From Trueperaceae bacterium (lineage in GTDB: Bacteria > Deinococcota > Deinococci > Deinococcales > Trueperaceae), in assembly GCA_020354625.1 (NCBI GenBank), contig CP070651.1, forward strand, positions 1,319,594 to 1,369,532: DNA of 49,939 nt. The letters run 5' to 3'. The translations under genes and the position numbers were made by a program. The notes under the pieces are model-generated. The model was not told where the DNA came from and did not search any database. It saw only the letters and a list, made by a program, of their open reading frames with translations. Of this stretch, positions 11,495 to 19,880 are shown piece by piece; within the stretch, counting starts at the first letter, position 1, and every line of letters starts with the position of its first letter.

Positions 11495-11522
11495 TTGATT
11501 TTCGCTGAGAAAGCATTAAAAT
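11495..11522 (+). promoter_or_regulatory. Promoter for the 55-residue micro-ORF
   Basis: TTGATT (-35) and TAAAAT (-10) are separated by 16 nt. The expected start of transcription is about 60 nt upstream of the micro-ORF at 11588. It directs plus-strand transcription away from the tRNA gene. Confidence 0.45.
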
Positions 11523-11587
11523 GTGAATAACTTCATATCGAGGTAGCTTGTTGGGAGCTTGGAAGAGCGCGCGTCATGGGAGGGACC

Positions 11588-11755
11588 GTGAATAGGCAGA
11601 GAATGGGATTGAGGCTTCTTATATATGTATTGCTATACACGTCGTTTGCGTTGGGTCTGCCACAGTATCACTACGCGACCGCCTTGATGATCGCCGTGAT
11701 CATCAAACATAAAGAGGATCCACAGAGTCTTTTGGCTCAGGTATACGCCTCTTGA
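11588..11755 (+). CDS. Micro-ORF with signal-peptide-like N-terminus
   Basis: 55 residues from the GTG at 11588, which has GGGAGGG 2-7 nt upstream; an ATG at 11576 would add four residues. The N-terminus is basic (MNRQRMGLR) and is followed by a hydrophobic stretch LLIYVLLYTSFALG, so it may be secreted or membrane-inserted; a second hydrophobic stretch (ATALMIAVII) and a charged tail follow. Its opening QRMGLR resembles QRIGLR in the second micro-ORF at 14169. It precedes the TPR-like gene at 12154, with a terminator-like hairpin between. Function unknown; it is short enough that chance is possible, but promoter, ribosome site and signal-like N-terminus agree. Confidence 0.42.
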   Translation: MNRQRMGLRLLIYVLLYTSFALGLPQYHYATALMIAVIIKHKEDPQSLLAQVYAS

Positions 11756-12083
11756 CGTGACGAGCTAATCAGATTGTAGTGCGCAACCGGCGTCGCTGAA
11801 GGTGAGCGTCGAAGGCTTTTCGGTCGGAGAGGTTCTGAGGTCGGTGTTGTGTCCACGTAGCTGGTGGATGTAAGAGAGCGTTTTGTGGGTAGCTTCGGGA
11901 GGTGAAATACGCAGGATTGGGCGCCTTCGCAAGTGGGGGGCGGCGCGCTCTGTGGGTTCACGTTGCGTGAGGAAGGGGGAGGTTGTTACGCGTTCGGGAG
12001 TCTATGACGTGGGTAGTCATACTTTCGTGTCGCACTATCAACCTCGAGCCAGTAGAGGCTTTTGGCGCATTCCGTAGCGTCTG
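11756..12083. other. Intergenic region, possible gene debris
   Basis: No complete gene is visible. A short plus-strand reading near 11778-11850 (SAQPASLKVSVEGFSVGEVL) resembles the start of a secretin/TonB-type short domain, but it has no start codon and soon meets a stop. I treat it as possible debris only. Confidence 0.3.
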
Positions 12084-12120
12084 GTGCCGGGAGCGCTTTC
12101 GGGCACTACCCCAATTTTTT
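12084..12120 (+). terminator. Candidate intrinsic terminator
   Basis: GTGCCGGGA pairs with TTTCGGGCAC (one mismatch) around a short GCGC-containing loop. A run of six T follows at 12115-12120 after an 8-nt gap. It would end transcription coming from the micro-ORF at 11588 and separate it from the TPR-like gene. Confidence 0.45.
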
Positions 12121-12153
12121 AGAAACATGCAAGAATAGTGGGCACAGCTCCGC

Positions 12154-14034
12154 TTGTCTGCGTTGGGATTGAATGGGATGACGCAAATGTACGGCCAGAG
12201 TGTGGAGGGTTCGGGCAGGTTGCCTTGGTGGCATGTCCCTGCGGAGAGCGACGCCAGGGTGGGCGCTGCCGGCTTCGACCATTTGAGAGGTCTCCTCTCA
12301 CAAATCCCGAGGGGTAGCGCAGCTGCTGAATACCGGCGTGCCGTCATCTTGATCGAGTTGGGCCGCTTTCAAGAGGCGCTGGAACTCATTCCACACATCG
12401 ATGGGCAGACTTCTGGGCTCGAGGCTTACGGATATCTCCGGGCGGGAAACCTTGAGACTTCTGCACGGTGCGCCGACGCCGCTGCGGCCGGGGTTTGGCT
12501 CAACCGAACGCTGCTCGTACGAGAAGACCTGATGTATCTTTACTTCGTCCGTGGCGTTACCACTCGACCAGAGGGGGCGCGGTGGCATCTCCGTACGGCG
12601 GAGTCGCTCGCCGTCGAACTCGGGATGGTCGATTTCAGGAAGCGGGTTCACGCGGTGGCGGGTAGAACCCTCGAGTTGCTCGATGAGGTGCCGTATCAAC
12701 GTCGTGAGGCCGTCGAAGTCTTCGTCACGCCGGAAGAACGTCTCGAAGACCTCTACCTTCCGGCTTGGTTCGACCAGTTCAAAGAGCACCTCGATCTGAC
12801 TTCGTTCGAAGAGCGCTATCAAATGTTTATGGCTGACCCGGTGGTGAAGTGCCGCAAGGCAGAACTGCTCATCGCTTTGGAGCGCGATCACGAGGCGCTC
12901 GAACTCTTGACGGGTTTGCGGTCGAATCTTGCGTACGGCCTTCAAATGAAGATCTTCGCTTCCCAAGGGAGGAGTGAAAAGGTCGAGGCGATGTTGAGGC
13001 ATTTCACGCCGAGGGGAGAGCTGCTCGCCTTGGAGGGAGCCGTCCACGTGTATGAAAATGCTGCCTGGCTCCACTTCAAAAATGTGCGTTTTGCAGAGGC
13101 GGAAGAAGCACTTTTGAAGGCGGTCGGATTGGCCGAACAACTCGGTCTCAAACGGCGTTTGACGACTCTATCGCTTCATTGGGAGAATGCTCGGACCAAG
13201 TTGGGGGCCGGCGTTCGGGAGGTGTTGGGTGAGGTGAGCCGGGATGTCCGACTCGATGCGTACCGAGAAGAGGTCAAAGTGCGCAGTCTCTTGTTCGCCG
13301 GAGACGCTGCCAACGCCAAGCGGATGGCTCAGGTGGGAGAGATCGGTAAGGGGGCGGCAAGCTTGGTTACTGCGACGGTTCTCTTACACAACAGAAACGA
13401 CTTCGGTGCTTCGTTCGAGATTACCGAAGAGTTCCCACAACTCGCCGAGCAGAGGCTCTTTTGGGGGTTTTTGATGCTCAGCAGCTTTGCGCGCGTCGGT
13501 GAGCGTGCGTATGCCAGTCCGGCGAGGGCGTTCGATGCGGTGCGGTCGAGTCTTCCTGTCCTGGCACTGCCCAAACAGTCGCTGGCTGACGCCAAGGCGC
13601 TCTACCCGCTCGGAATCGCCCTTGCCGCTTACCACCCGAGGCTTTCAGAGGCCCTGGAGCACGTGGCTGCACAGGTGCCGATTCTCCGTAACGATCGTGA
13701 CCGGCACGGGATATTTGTCGCCGGCCACAAGACCCATCTGACCAAACCGGTACGGGATGCGCTCATGCGAGACGGTTTGGAGGGAACTACCCGGCATTTC
13801 GAGCTGGCGACGCAGGGGAGCGCCAACAGTTATAGGAGAACCCGGTACATCAGAGCCTTGAGGGAAGCGGGGATCGAATCCTATCAACTGGTCTGTTTGA
13901 CGGAGCTATGGTCTGGGCTGATGCGTCTCGCCCGAGTGATGCCGCATGTAGGCTGGCAACGGGCGGCAGACGAGTTGCGAGCAGGCTCGAAGAAACTTCG
14001 GCAGTTGACGGCAAATTACCAAGTACCCGACTAG
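12154..14034 (+). CDS. TPR-like helical repeat protein, candidate peptide receptor or regulator
   Basis: Up to 626 residues, almost entirely helical. TPR-like helix pairs are visible near residues 57-82 (AAEYRRAVILIELGRFQEAL), 233-256, 261-284 and 300-330, ending in GLAEQLGLKRR. No HTH, kinase, ATPase or membrane segment is recognisable, and the C-terminal 150 residues match nothing I know. An in-frame TAG at 12136 limits the 5' end; possible starts are TTG 12154, ATG 12178 or ATG 12187, none with a strong ribosome site. It is flanked by two micro-ORFs with signal-peptide-like openings (11588 and 14169), an arrangement that recalls RRNPP peptide/TPR receptor systems. Known of the family: TPRs bind peptides or proteins. 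Inferred: signalling role. Confidence 0.7.
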   Translation: MSALGLNGMTQMYGQSVEGSGRLPWWHVPAESDARVGAAGFDHLRGLLSQIPRGSAAAEYRRAVILIELGRFQEALELIPHIDGQTSGLEAYGYLRAGNLETSARCADAAAAGVWLNRTLLVREDLMYLYFVRGVTTRPEGARWHLRTAESLAVELGMVDFRKRVHAVAGRTLELLDEVPYQRREAVEVFVTPEERLEDLYLPAWFDQFKEHLDLTSFEERYQMFMADPVVKCRKAELLIALERDHEALELLTGLRSNLAYGLQMKIFASQGRSEKVEAMLRHFTPRGELLALEGAVHVYENAAWLHFKNVRFAEAEEALLKAVGLAEQLGLKRRLTTLSLHWENARTKLGAGVREVLGEVSRDVRLDAYREEVKVRSLLFAGDAANAKRMAQVGEIGKGAASLVTATVLLHNRNDFGASFEITEEFPQLAEQRLFWGFLMLSSFARVGERAYASPARAFDAVRSSLPVLALPKQSLADAKALYPLGIALAAYHPRLSEALEHVAAQVPILRNDRDRHGIFVAGHKTHLTKPVRDALMRDGLEGTTRHFELATQGSANSYRRTRYIRALREAGIESYQLVCLTELWSGLMRLARVMPHVGWQRAADELRAGSKKLRQLTANYQVPD

Positions 14035-14168
14035 AGCGCACCGGACAATCCGTACAGTTAAGGGGCCATACCGTTCTGGATGGCCGCTTTGCCAGATGGG
14101 AGCCCCGCCGGAAATCTCAAGCGACCCGGTACTGGGGTGGCAGGGTGGATAACAAAGAGGTGTGCAAT

Positions 14169-14282
14169 ATGAAACAGAGAATCGGACTACGTCCTAATTC
14201 GGCGCTTGCCAAACTGGTTTTGGCCTTGGTCCCCTTGTCGATTCTCGGCATGGCCTTGGCCCAGTGGTGTACGCGCTGCTGA
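14169..14282 (+). CDS. Micro-ORF: secreted-peptide precursor candidate
   Basis: 37 residues. The ATG at 14169 has AAAGAGGTG about 7 nt upstream. The N-terminus is basic (MKQRIGLR), then a hydrophobic core (LAKLVLALVPLSILG) leads to a signal-peptidase-like site MALA, leaving a C-terminal QWCTRC with two cysteines spaced CxxC. This is the architecture of a short peptide-pheromone precursor. It lies 134 bp downstream of the TPR-like gene on the same strand. The opening resembles that of the micro-ORF at 11588. No homologue is known to me; function is inferred from layout only. Confidence 0.45.
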   Translation: MKQRIGLRPNSALAKLVLALVPLSILGMALAQWCTRC

Positions 14283-16333: not shown

Positions 16334-17938
16334 ATGAGCAAGTTATCGAAGATGTGTGTCGTGCTAATCGCGGCACTGTTCGCAGCCGGATCCTTTGCCG
16401 TGGCGCAAGGCGGCGATCTCGTGATCGCCATGAACGGCTCCAGCGAACCCGCCAACTTGGATAGTCAACTCGATCCGTTCGATTCGGCCAAGGTCCTCAA
16501 TAACCTGGTTGCCGACCGGCTCGTCTTTATCAACCCGGACGGCGCTCAAATCGAGCCCCACCTGGCGACGGGCTGGGAGATCTCTGATGACAATCTGACC
16601 TGGACCTTCACCTTGCGTGAGGACGTAATGTTCCAAGACGGTACCCCCTTCAATGCTGAAGCGGTCAAGGCCAACCTCGAGCGGATCATCTCGCCCGAGA
16701 CCGGTAGTGGCGAAGCAGCCGAGGCGTTGGGTCCGATCGCGTCGGTGGACGTGGTCGACGAGTTCACCGTCACTGTTACCCACGAAAGCCCCTGGAACAG
16801 CTTCCTATACGCTCTGGCTACCCAGGGCGTGATGTGGTCGCCGACGGCGCTAGCGGAGAACACACCTGGTGAGTTTTCCAGTCTCCTCATCGGCACAGGA
16901 CCGTTCAAGTTGGTCGAATGGGTACCGAACAGCCACGTTCGCTTCGAACGTTGGGATGGGTACAATTGGGGTCCTTCCATCAAGCAAGAGCCTGGGCCGG
17001 TGGCGCTCGATAGCGTGACCGTCAAATTCATCGATGAGGAACTGGTTCGCGGCACCATCATCACCACCGACGAGGCCAATGTGGTGTGGGATCTGCCTGC
17101 TCAGTTCGTCGCGGACTACGAAGGCAACTCCGACTACCAGCTCCTCTCGGGTTATCAGGCCGGTACGGGCATGCAGTACGTCATGAACGTGACCCAGCCG
17201 CCGCTCGACAACCTGCTGGTACGCCGGGCCATCCGTCACGCGACAAATCAGGCCGGGCTCAACAATCTCGTATACGACGGTCGTAACCTGGTAATGAACA
17301 CGCCTCTTAATTCGGTGCACCCGTGTTATGCTCCCGAGCTCGAGTCGGTCTACCCCTACGATCTCGACGGGGCCAAGGCGCTGTTGGCCGAGGCGGGATA
17401 TGAGGACCGGAACGGAGACGGCATCGTCGAGGCGTACGGCGTTGCGGGCGTCGAGGACGGCAGCCCGCTGGTAGTCCGTTGGACCGCGCTCAGCAGACAG
17501 GCCAAGGGGGAGGCGCTGCAGGCGCAGTTGCGTCAAGCTGGGATCGATCTCCAGCTCGAGATCATCCCAGGACCGGTGCAGCTCGAGCGCGCTCAGAAAA
17601 AAGACTTCGATCTCATCTACGAACGCCAGCGTATAGCGCTGCCAGAAGTGCTGCACATCGTCTGGTTCTCCGAAAACGACGGCCCTGGCCAGTGGGCCTG
17701 GACGGGCTTCCAAGATGAAGAGCTCGACAGTCTGTTGGAACAGATGATCAACTCGCTCGAGCCGAGCGAGGCGTGTGATCTGGCGCGTCAAGCGCAGCAC
17801 ATCATTCAGGACAATGCCCTGCAACTCCCCACCCTGAGCGAGGCGGTATTCTACGTGCTCGAGAATAACGTTCAGGGCTTCGAGCTCGGTTCCCAGGGCC
17901 TCTGGTTCTACGTCTATAACGCCAGCGTCGAGGAGTAG
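16334..17938 (+). CDS. ABC transporter substrate-binding protein, SBP family 5
   Basis: 534 residues. The ATG at 16334 has AGGGAGG 3 nt upstream. The Sec signal MSKLSKMCVVLIAALFAAGSF ends before AVAQGGD, with no lipobox at the cleavage site, so it is periplasmic. Family 5 features: NGSSEPANLDSQLDPFDSAK near the mature N-terminus, LTWTFTLREDVMFQDGTPFN, LIGTGPFKLVEW, and VRRAIRHATNQAGL. It probably delivers its ligand to the permeases at 18060 and 18999. A cysteine pair (HPCYAPE and EACDLA regions) may stabilise the C-terminal lobe. First gene of the long plus-strand run, with the palindromic operator about 300 bp upstream. Confidence 0.9.
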   Translation: MSKLSKMCVVLIAALFAAGSFAVAQGGDLVIAMNGSSEPANLDSQLDPFDSAKVLNNLVADRLVFINPDGAQIEPHLATGWEISDDNLTWTFTLREDVMFQDGTPFNAEAVKANLERIISPETGSGEAAEALGPIASVDVVDEFTVTVTHESPWNSFLYALATQGVMWSPTALAENTPGEFSSLLIGTGPFKLVEWVPNSHVRFERWDGYNWGPSIKQEPGPVALDSVTVKFIDEELVRGTIITTDEANVVWDLPAQFVADYEGNSDYQLLSGYQAGTGMQYVMNVTQPPLDNLLVRRAIRHATNQAGLNNLVYDGRNLVMNTPLNSVHPCYAPELESVYPYDLDGAKALLAEAGYEDRNGDGIVEAYGVAGVEDGSPLVVRWTALSRQAKGEALQAQLRQAGIDLQLEIIPGPVQLERAQKKDFDLIYERQRIALPEVLHIVWFSENDGPGQWAWTGFQDEELDSLLEQMINSLEPSEACDLARQAQHIIQDNALQLPTLSEAVFYVLENNVQGFELGSQGLWFYVYNASVEE

Positions 17939-17963
17939 TCCCGGGTTCTTTCCCACGAGTGTG

Positions 17964-17994
17964 GTGGTGCGGAGTGGCTCGCTGCCCGCACCAC
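17964..17994 (+). promoter_or_regulatory. Intercistronic stem-loop after binding-protein gene
   Basis: A perfect 9-bp stem (GTGGTGCGG with CCGCACCAC) lies 26 bp after the binding-protein stop and 65 bp before the permease. Only a short T-rich stretch follows, so partial termination or 3'-end protection is more likely than a full stop. Confidence 0.5.
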
Positions 17995-18059
17995 TCATTT
18001 ATTGACGTTCTCAGTACGGCCTGCTTTGCCTGACGGCTCGTTGTCGTCGTAGGAGGCGG

Positions 18060-18992
18060 ATGTTCACCTATACGGTTCGTCGGATTACGGAACTGATTCC
18101 CGTCTTGATCATCGTTTCGGTGATCGTGTTTTCGGTGATGCATCTGCTCCCTGGTGACCCGACCGAGTTGATGCTCGCCGGCGCGGAGGGGGGTGCAGTT
18201 TCTGCCGAGCGGCTCGAGGAATTGCGCGAGGTCATGGGTCTCAACGACCCCCTCTACCAGCAGTTCGGCAATTTCTTTGTAGGCGCTGTACAGGGTGATC
18301 TCGGGACCTCGATCCGTTTCCGTTCGCCCGTGACCGAAATTGTGCTGGACCGCTTCCCTTACACCCTCAGGTTGAGCTTGGCAGGGTTGGCGGTGGCGAT
18401 GCTGATCGGTGTGCCGCTCGGGACGCTCGCTGCCATCAAGCGAAATACCTGGCTCGACAGCTTTAGTATGGCCCTATCTCTGATCGGCGTGTCCATGCCG
18501 ATCTTTTGGTTGGGGCTCCTTCTGATCCTGGTCTTCGCCATCAACTTGCGCTGGTTGCCGACCACCGGGGCGGGGGGGGTGAAGGCGCTGATCATGCCGG
18601 CGTTTACGCTCGGCTTCGTGTCTGCGGCGCTCGTGAGCCGTTTGATTCGAAGTAGTTTGCTCGAGGTGTTGCAAGAAGACTACGTGCGCACGGCGCGCAG
18701 TAAGGGTCTGACGGGTCGCGCGGTCCTTGTTCATCACGCCTTCAAGAACGCGCTGATACCTGTAGTGACCATCATCGGGCTTCAGTTCGGCCATATGCTT
18801 GCGGGGGCTGTGGTAACGGAGACCGTGTTTAGCAGACCGGGCCTGGGGCGCCTGGTGGTCAACGCTATTTTGTGGAAGGATTTCCCCCTGGTTCAGGGGA
18901 CGGTTCTCTTTTTGGCCATCATGTATGTGTTGGTCAACCTCATCGTCGATATTTCCTACGCCTGGCTCGACCCGCGCATTCACTACGGTTGA
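18060..18992 (+). CDS. ABC transporter permease, DppB/OppB family
   Basis: 310 residues. TAGGAGGCGG directly precedes the ATG. Standard DppB architecture: first helix ending VMHLLPGDPTELML, the QGDLGTSIRF stretch, then helices separated by the EAA-type loop near DYVRTARSKGLTGR. The C-terminus VNLIVDISYAWLDPRIHYG is family-typical. It forms the channel with the permease at 18999, which starts 6 bp after this stop. Confidence 0.92.
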   Translation: MFTYTVRRITELIPVLIIVSVIVFSVMHLLPGDPTELMLAGAEGGAVSAERLEELREVMGLNDPLYQQFGNFFVGAVQGDLGTSIRFRSPVTEIVLDRFPYTLRLSLAGLAVAMLIGVPLGTLAAIKRNTWLDSFSMALSLIGVSMPIFWLGLLLILVFAINLRWLPTTGAGGVKALIMPAFTLGFVSAALVSRLIRSSLLEVLQEDYVRTARSKGLTGRAVLVHHAFKNALIPVVTIIGLQFGHMLAGAVVTETVFSRPGLGRLVVNAILWKDFPLVQGTVLFLAIMYVLVNLIVDISYAWLDPRIHYG

Positions 18993-18998
18993 TTTCAG

Positions 18999-19880
18999 AT
19001 GCAGCATTCGGTTACCCAAGACAACTACGATGGCGACGCCACCACGCGGCGTCGTTTGCTGAGGCTCTTTTTTCGAAATAGGGGCGCGGTGATCGGCTTA
19101 TTGGTGCTGTTTTGTTGGATCGTGATCGCTCTCTTTGCACCGTTCTTTTCGCCCTTTAACCCCATCGAAATCGATTTTATCGGCCGGGTGGGGCCTAGTT
19201 GGGAACACCCTTTCGGTACCGACCGCCTGGGCAGAGATCTGTTGAGCCGCGTCTTTTTCGGCGCTCGCATTTCCTTGCTGTTGGGCGTCATCAGCGTCGC
19301 GATCGGGTTGGTGTCGGGGACATTGCTCGGCTTGGTGGCCGGATACTATGGCGGCCGGGTAGAGACCGTGATCATGCGCTTTGTCGACGCGCTGTTGGCG
19401 TTTCCCGGCATCCTGTTGGCCTTGATCGTGATCGCAGTGCTCGGTCCAGGATTGGGCAACGTGATGATCGCTGTCGGCATCTCGACCATCCCCGAGTACG
19501 CCCGCTTGGCTAGAAGCAAGGTTCTTTCGGTCAAGGAGCTCCCCTATATCGAGGCGGTGAAGGGGTTGGGTAGTGCCGGTGGGCGAATCATGTTTCGGCA
19601 TATTCTGCCGAATATCAGCGGTCCGTTGATCGTCCTATCGACGCTGCAGGTCGGCAACGCGATCTTGGTGGGTTCGGGGCTCAGTTTTCTCGGGATGGGT
19701 GCCCAGCCGCCCACCCCGGAGTGGGGGCTGATGACGGCCGAAGGCCGCAACTTTCTCAATCGGGCTTGGTGGATCAGCACCTTTCCTGGGCTCGCCATCC
19801 TCAGTGCGGTGATGGCTATGAATCTGATCGGCGATGGGTTGCGGGAGGCGCTCGACCCCCGCATGAAATTGGATGTATGA
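18999..19880 (+). CDS. ABC transporter permease, DppC/OppC family
   Basis: 293 residues. Diagnostic GTDRLGRDLLSRVFFGARISL follows the first helix and the periplasmic loop; the EAA-type loop is near YIEAVKGLGSAG; the C-terminus is MNLIGDGLREALDPRMK. The ATG is 6 bp after the upstream permease stop, with little ribosome site, so translational coupling is likely. No ATPase gene follows; the next gene is an oxidoreductase. Confidence 0.92.
   Translation: MQHSVTQDNYDGDATTRRRLLRLFFRNRGAVIGLLVLFCWIVIALFAPFFSPFNPIEIDFIGRVGPSWEHPFGTDRLGRDLLSRVFFGARISLLLGVISVAIGLVSGTLLGLVAGYYGGRVETVIMRFVDALLAFPGILLALIVIAVLGPGLGNVMIAVGISTIPEYARLARSKVLSVKELPYIEAVKGLGSAGGRIMFRHILPNISGPLIVLSTLQVGNAILVGSGLSFLGMGAQPPTPEWGLMTAEGRNFLNRAWWISTFPGLAILSAVMAMNLIGDGLREALDPRMKLDV

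Follow-up and report, generated by a model that had tools for sequence, protein, structure and literature searches.

A two-gene unit of Trueperaceae that looks like a peptide signal and its receptor: a large protein of helical repeats with a very small, putatively secreted CxxC peptide encoded after it

RRNPP systems consist of a TPR receptor and a short secreted pro-peptide encoded adjacently, and to our knowledge cytoplasmic peptide signalling has been described almost wholly from Firmicutes. The question raised by the locus analysed here is whether a receptor and peptide of this sort are encoded in a genome of the Deinococcota. The window, that is, the whole stretch of DNA analysed (49,939 nucleotides, G000:C1:1319594-1369532), lies within the 4.29-Mb single-contig genome of a Trueperaceae bacterium. 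An earlier reading of the letters alone (the sequence-only reading) had noticed a TPR-like protein of up to 626 residues between two small ORFs, the second of them a signal peptide with an AxA-type site followed by QWCTRC, and had proposed that they form a new receptor-peptide pair. The three ORFs were confirmed, and the region contains the following features:

11588-11755, + strand: 55-codon GTG ORF, within a 59-aa ATG ORF (ORF list).
12154-14034, + strand: putative peptide receptor, a TPR-like (alpha-solenoid) protein of 626 aa at most (ORF list, weak TPR Pfam matches, homologues, AlphaFold); candidate in-frame starts TTG 12154, ATG 12178 and ATG 12187.
12739-13623, + strand: TPR-like module common to 8/8 complete receptors, residues ~196-490 (tblastn, invariant columns in alignment A1).
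13666-14031, + strand: family-specific C-terminal domain, residues ~505-626, a beta-hairpin and, after it, helices carrying a basic segment (alignment A7, AlphaFold models).
14155-14162, + strand: Shine-Dalgarno-like AAGAGGTG 5' of the peptide ATG (sequence).
14169-14282, + strand: 37-aa (37-codon) ORF MKQRIGLRPNSALAKLVLALVPLSILGMALAQWCTRC, 134 nt 3' of the 626-aa ORF; putative propeptide MKQRIGLRPNSALAKLVLALVPLSILGMALA / QWCTRC (ORF list, conserved counterparts, HMM).
14262-14279, + strand: hexapeptide QWCTRC that cleavage after ALA is predicted to release as the mature form (alignment A2, (-3,-1) rule).

The TPR character of the 626-aa protein is weak in Pfam (TPR_8 6e-4 and TPR_1 1e-3, both under the cut-off), as are the Pfam TPR matches of several members of its family. 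The AlphaFold models, which the sequence-only reading had proposed to examine for a TPR superhelix, are alpha-helical throughout the repeats: the window receptor is modelled as all-helical repeats forming an alpha-solenoid (moderate pLDDT, 67), and the 451-aa homologue of locus L002 gives a good model (pLDDT 83) in which an alpha-solenoid is followed by a beta-hairpin and helices. In a Foldseek search with the L002 model, a phage Rap with bound peptide ranked third among TPR folds (E 7e-3, low TM-score), a likeness which is suggestive only, the other matches being generic TPR proteins and TPR solenoids being widely similar to one another. No signal peptide was evident by eye in the receptor N-termini. 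The C-terminal domain, with invariant G, A, D, R and L in alignment A7, is a possible output domain. It gave no Pfam match in the window receptor and in the 850-aa class, a single insignificant one in L002 (DnaA_N, E 0.18), and no significant match among PDB sequences. No DNA-binding or enzymatic output domain was recognised in the receptors by Pfam, NCBIfam and PDB sequence searches, in agreement with the sequence-only reading, which had seen neither an HTH nor a phosphatase domain (none found with Pfam and NCBIfam). By eye, the C-terminal helices could be read as MerR-like or as a winged helix, but no tool backed this and it was rejected.

When the window receptor alone served as tblastn query against 61 genomes, G001 and G017 gave homologues with E-values from 2e-21 to 3e-8, and all of their alignments start within query residues 192-254. 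A match in G047 was discarded as spurious, lying inside a copper-ATPase-like ORF (identity read from the ORF sequence). The A1 profile of the eight complete receptors recovered the same loci from 111 genomes of the phylum and nothing further; its E-values in G001/G017 (1e-176 to 1e-236) come from a profile that includes those very proteins. A scan of 84,980 species genomes, keyed on short conserved stretches which distant relatives may escape, found the receptor pattern solely in two MAGs labelled Trueperaceae. The eight complete loci are the single copy of the window genome and seven in the two MAGs, and by the phylum search and the pattern scan the pairs are confined to two Trueperaceae genera. 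Receptor sizes are 447-451 aa (L002, L003, L008, L009), 626 aa (window) and 846-850 aa (L005, L007, L010); the L006 receptor is interrupted by the contig end. At L011 (G001:C703, 1435-1992) there is a truncated 185-aa receptor copy lacking both the C-terminal domain and a CxxC peptide, which have apparently been lost jointly. Searches of viral contigs, plasmids, PHROGs, PADLOC, NCBIfam and Rfam returned nothing informative. The L002, L003 and L009 receptors have a TAGACTT-like -10 element immediately 5' of the start codon, which suggests that transcripts of the 447-451-aa class may be leaderless; L005 and L007 have TTGACG...TATACT promoters, unlike the TAGACTT-like class.

A signal-peptide ORF follows the receptor on the same strand in all eight complete loci (29-37 aa, gap 60-134 nt; in the seven loci outside the window, 29-33 aa and 60-86 nt 3' of the receptor), so the small ORF that the sequence-only reading had wished to see beside each homologue is there in every case, with the same pattern of signal peptide, cleavage site and cysteine tail. 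Every one of these ORFs is preceded by a Shine-Dalgarno-like site. Signal peptides were called by their n-h-c pattern, and the slash in the propeptides marks the predicted signal-peptidase site, placed by the (-3,-1) rule. The counterparts of the window peptide are:

L002: MKKRFYLIATLLLLAFNTIVLA / GPDFCTRC
L003: MKKRYLLIASLFLLALNTIVLA / GPDFCTRC
L008: MAKVYRFLVAIALLALTLSPVIA / ENCTHC
L009: MKRLHRIAFATLLLLLTLAPVLA / GDWYVCPRC
L005: MFTRRAYLKFFIISLILVISSQTAFA / GWCANCF
L007: MLKRLAKTKYLIILGLLFFASQTAFA / GWCSNCN
L010: MLKRFAQVKYLVILGLLFFASQTAFA / GWCANCY

In alignment A2 all eight have a predicted (A/V)-x-A cleavage site and a C-terminal CxxC, which is invariant while the neighbouring residues vary; almost all have a basic N-terminus. 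Each peptide was recognised by an HMM built from the other seven (8.7-47.9 bits; window peptide 12.7 bits). Terminator-like hairpins with T-rich tails lie 3' of several of the peptide ORFs (clearest in L005, L007, L010 and L009), indicating that these ORFs close the unit and lead no further gene; terminator-like matches in the window region were not above the shuffled expectation.

The upstream 55-aa ORF, taken by the sequence-only reading as part of the same system, does not belong to it. Its homologues (E<=1.2e-8, ~42-53% identity, conserved core LGLPQxHYxxALMIAxIxRH) occur in six other Deinococcota genomes, G001, G005, G008 (twice), G013, G017 and G021, in unrelated neighbourhoods and also where there is no receptor, which places it outside the receptor-peptide unit and led us to reject it as a second pheromone. 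It has no CxxC tail and no Pfam or NCBIfam family and is, judging by this conservation, a genuine conserved small membrane protein. The QR(M/I)GLR start that had seemed to link the two micro-ORFs is a coincidence or unexplained.

The reading that we favour, with a probability of about 0.6, is a two-gene peptide-signalling unit, in which a CxxC peptide would be secreted and the TPR protein would be the receptor matched to it. The small gene would encode a Sec-type prepeptide, cut by signal peptidase I after (A/V)-x-A to give a peptide of 6-9 residues ending in CxxC or CxxCx. Once released, and possibly disulfide-closed outside the cell, the peptide would be taken back up by an oligopeptide permease or would act before export, re-import being the most likely course; it would then dock in the concave side of the TPR solenoid, a cytoplasmic protein whose gene lies directly upstream, and alter the activity of the receptor C-terminal domain, which may contact DNA or protein. 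The peptide could also act while membrane-anchored. CxxC is a classic thiol-redox and metal-binding motif, and its invariance between variable flanking residues, together with the basic N-termini, would also suit an envelope redox or metal sensor, in which the small protein stays uncleaved in the membrane with CxxC at the outer face and passes its disulfide or metal state through the basic N-terminus to the cytoplasmic TPR protein. We consider such a sensor unlikely: a proper (-3,-1) signal-peptidase site, needless for an anchor, precedes the tail in all eight peptides, and the different tails of five paralogues in one genome are easier to reconcile with channel specificity than with a single common chemistry.

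Non-orthologous loci have different flanking genes, which leaves the pair itself as the conserved unit; a dedicated exporter, protease or importer is not a constant neighbour of the pairs. An upstream tRNA-Arg was considered as an island mark and rejected, the pair lying on the 5' side of the tRNA, which is not the usual integration side. In the window, a SBP_bac_5 solute-binding protein and two Opp/Dpp-type permeases are encoded 2-6 kb 3' of the peptide gene (16334-19880, + strand) and are a possible peptide importer; such neighbours were not seen beside the other pairs, so the link is circumstantial. Pairs of toxin and partner are often compact and mobile, and a small hydrophobic ORF that lies next to the TPR gene in the same direction, with several paralogues in a genome, recalls them; the peptide might then be a small secreted antimicrobial or membrane toxin, and the TPR protein its regulator, chaperone or immunity partner. 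This seems improbable, given that 6-9 residues, as predicted for the mature part, would make a very short bacteriocin, that a transporter or modification enzyme is not consistently adjacent, and that the PADLOC matches are weak and at chance level.

How closely the peptide is tied to the receptor was seen from both sides. The peptide profile returned eight matches in the 111 genomes of the phylum (E<=3e-11), each beside a receptor, the next one standing at 0.025, and no orphan CxxC peptide was detected by this search. The L005, L007 and L010 receptors share homology over their N-terminal 475 residues with Deinococcota regulators of the SARP/BTAD-like kind (hhalign 99.9%, E 4e-36), and 0/16 of such regulators lacking the receptor C-module have a CxxC peptide (>=252 nt downstream read; Fisher p ~1.4e-6), which ties the peptide to the C-terminal receptor module and not to TPR proteins generally. 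The similarity matrices of receptors and peptides are strongly correlated (r=0.92, permutation p=5e-5; r=0.71, p=0.003 for the mature part by itself), a correlation that shows co-inheritance as a unit, not contact. In G001 the mature peptides predicted for the five pairs all differ from one another (GPDFCTRC, GDWYVCPRC, GWCANCF, GWCSNCN, GWCANCY), and distinct mature sequences for each paralogue, kept between orthologues, are the pattern that would be expected of separate signalling channels. Small conserved membrane proteins are common, the upstream 55-aa ORF being one example; the putative receptor could be an ordinary TPR protein and the downstream small ORF a translated regulatory leader or a small membrane protein without direct partnership. 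The perfect co-occurrence with the receptor C-module, the lack of orphans, the variable flanks and the constraint on the mature tail make this, too, an improbable account.

That constraint is visible in the codons. In the L002/L003 orthologues, whose receptors are 65% identical, the mature GPDFCTRC is identical while the leaders differ at five positions, and 13/18 base changes between the peptide codons fall at third positions; L007/L010 differ by 14 synonymous and 6 non-synonymous codon changes. The more distant pair L005/L007 has no synonymous excess (15 non-synonymous vs 7 synonymous). The codons of the close pairs show the peptide to be under coding constraint. A rule of basic start, hydrophobic core and terminal CxxC recovered the peptide ORFs; in the other loci fetched, 305 kb in all, it found 0, and in Markov sequence 0-1 per 2 Mb; this rule of hydrophobicity and pattern (not SignalP) was drawn up after the peptides had been seen, so the scans gauge rarity and give no unbiased p-value. 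The window peptide itself had been chosen in the sequence-only reading before the homologues were known. GC-rich DNA abounds in micro-ORFs (114 ORFs of 30 aa or more in ~8.5 kb), but that this one stands by chance beside an unremarkable TPR gene, as the sequence-only reading had cautioned, is so improbable that it can be set aside, being contradicted by the conservation with CxxC and Shine-Dalgarno-like site in 8/8 loci, the synonymous bias and the absence of any such ORF from the 305 kb.

The proposed unit resembles the RRNPP/RRNPPA systems (Rap, Rgg, NprR, PlcR, PrgX, AimR and others) in its helical-repeat, predicted-cytoplasmic receptor built of TPR-like repeats, in the adjacent short Sec-type propeptide at 8/8 loci, whose active part would by analogy be the C-terminus, and in the several pairs per genome with different codes. 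The published signature, as in the RRNPP_detector default, is a propeptide of 10-100 aa, a spacing of -60 to 400 bp and a receptor of 250-500 aa (PMC10075063); the Trueperaceae propeptides (29-37 aa) and spacings (60-134 bp) are within it, whereas the receptors range over 447-850 aa, four fitting (447-451 aa) and the window receptor (626 aa) and three others (846-850 aa) exceeding it. The RRNPP family has been described in Firmicutes with N-terminal effector domains (PMC9765709), and a large survey covered only Firmicutes and viral genomes (PMC10075063); the Trueperaceae receptors, from a host outside Firmicutes, have neither an N-terminal HTH nor a Rap three-helix bundle (Pfam, NCBIfam), their extra domain is C-terminal, and their peptides have an invariant CxxC tail. 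Comparison of the receptor with PDB sequences gave nothing significant, and the RNPP_C profile was absent from G000, G001 and G017, in a search where the control set was also without a member over the cut-off. The unit probably works like an RRNPP system, by analogy; given the missing HTH, the lack of RNPP_C homology and the misfits in receptor length, we do not file it as RRNPP. The proposal of a receptor-peptide pair outside Firmicutes therefore holds as genetic architecture, well supported by the adjacent ORF in 8/8 homologues and the lack of orphans in 111 genomes; it does not hold for the upstream micro-ORF or for RRNPP membership.

The SARP/BTAD-like TPR regulators (L057-L075, ~820-860 aa, widespread in Deinococcota) share their TPR module with L005, L007 and L010 and differ in a SARP/BTAD-like winged-helix C-terminus (read from sequence, no Pfam match) and in having no receptor C-module and no CxxC peptide; the receptor C-module did not align with this family (hhalign probability 0.3%). 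The three G001 receptors are fusions of a SARP/BTAD-type TPR module and the CxxC-receptor C-module, and show module swapping between regulator families. Two of the regulators (L057 and L058; G001:C554, G017:C98) lie ~190 nt 5' of a gene with a secreted solute-binding-protein-like start.

Agr-type cyclic autoinducing peptides are short and secreted, with an essential cysteine; chemically they are thiolactones, which AgrB-like proteases produce and histidine kinases in the membrane detect. The Trueperaceae peptides, with their predicted secretion, are likewise short cysteine peptides, but AgrB-like protease or histidine kinase genes were seen beside no pair examined. In the open-licence literature we found nothing relevant on peptide signalling in Deinococcus-Thermus or Truepera, an absence there which is not proof.

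The helical-repeat protein and the small CxxC peptide encoded after it are a previously undescribed two-gene unit that looks like a peptide signal and its receptor, in a phylum from which none has been described. A broader proposal, an independently evolved Deinococcota family of peptide quorum sensing with disulfide-capable CxxC peptides, TPR receptors derived partly from SARP-like TPR modules and several private channels per cell, is tentative, and we would place it a little short of even odds. The fusion of receptor module and SARP-type TPR module hints at a route by which such receptors may arise. The predicted CxxC peptides are short, cheap-to-synthesise candidate ligands whose binding is directly testable. 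A thiol-bearing peptide, if true, raises the question of its export and re-import, and a receptor-peptide pair conserved in a lineage of the Deinococcota, if true, would carry cytoplasmic peptide signalling to another phylum.
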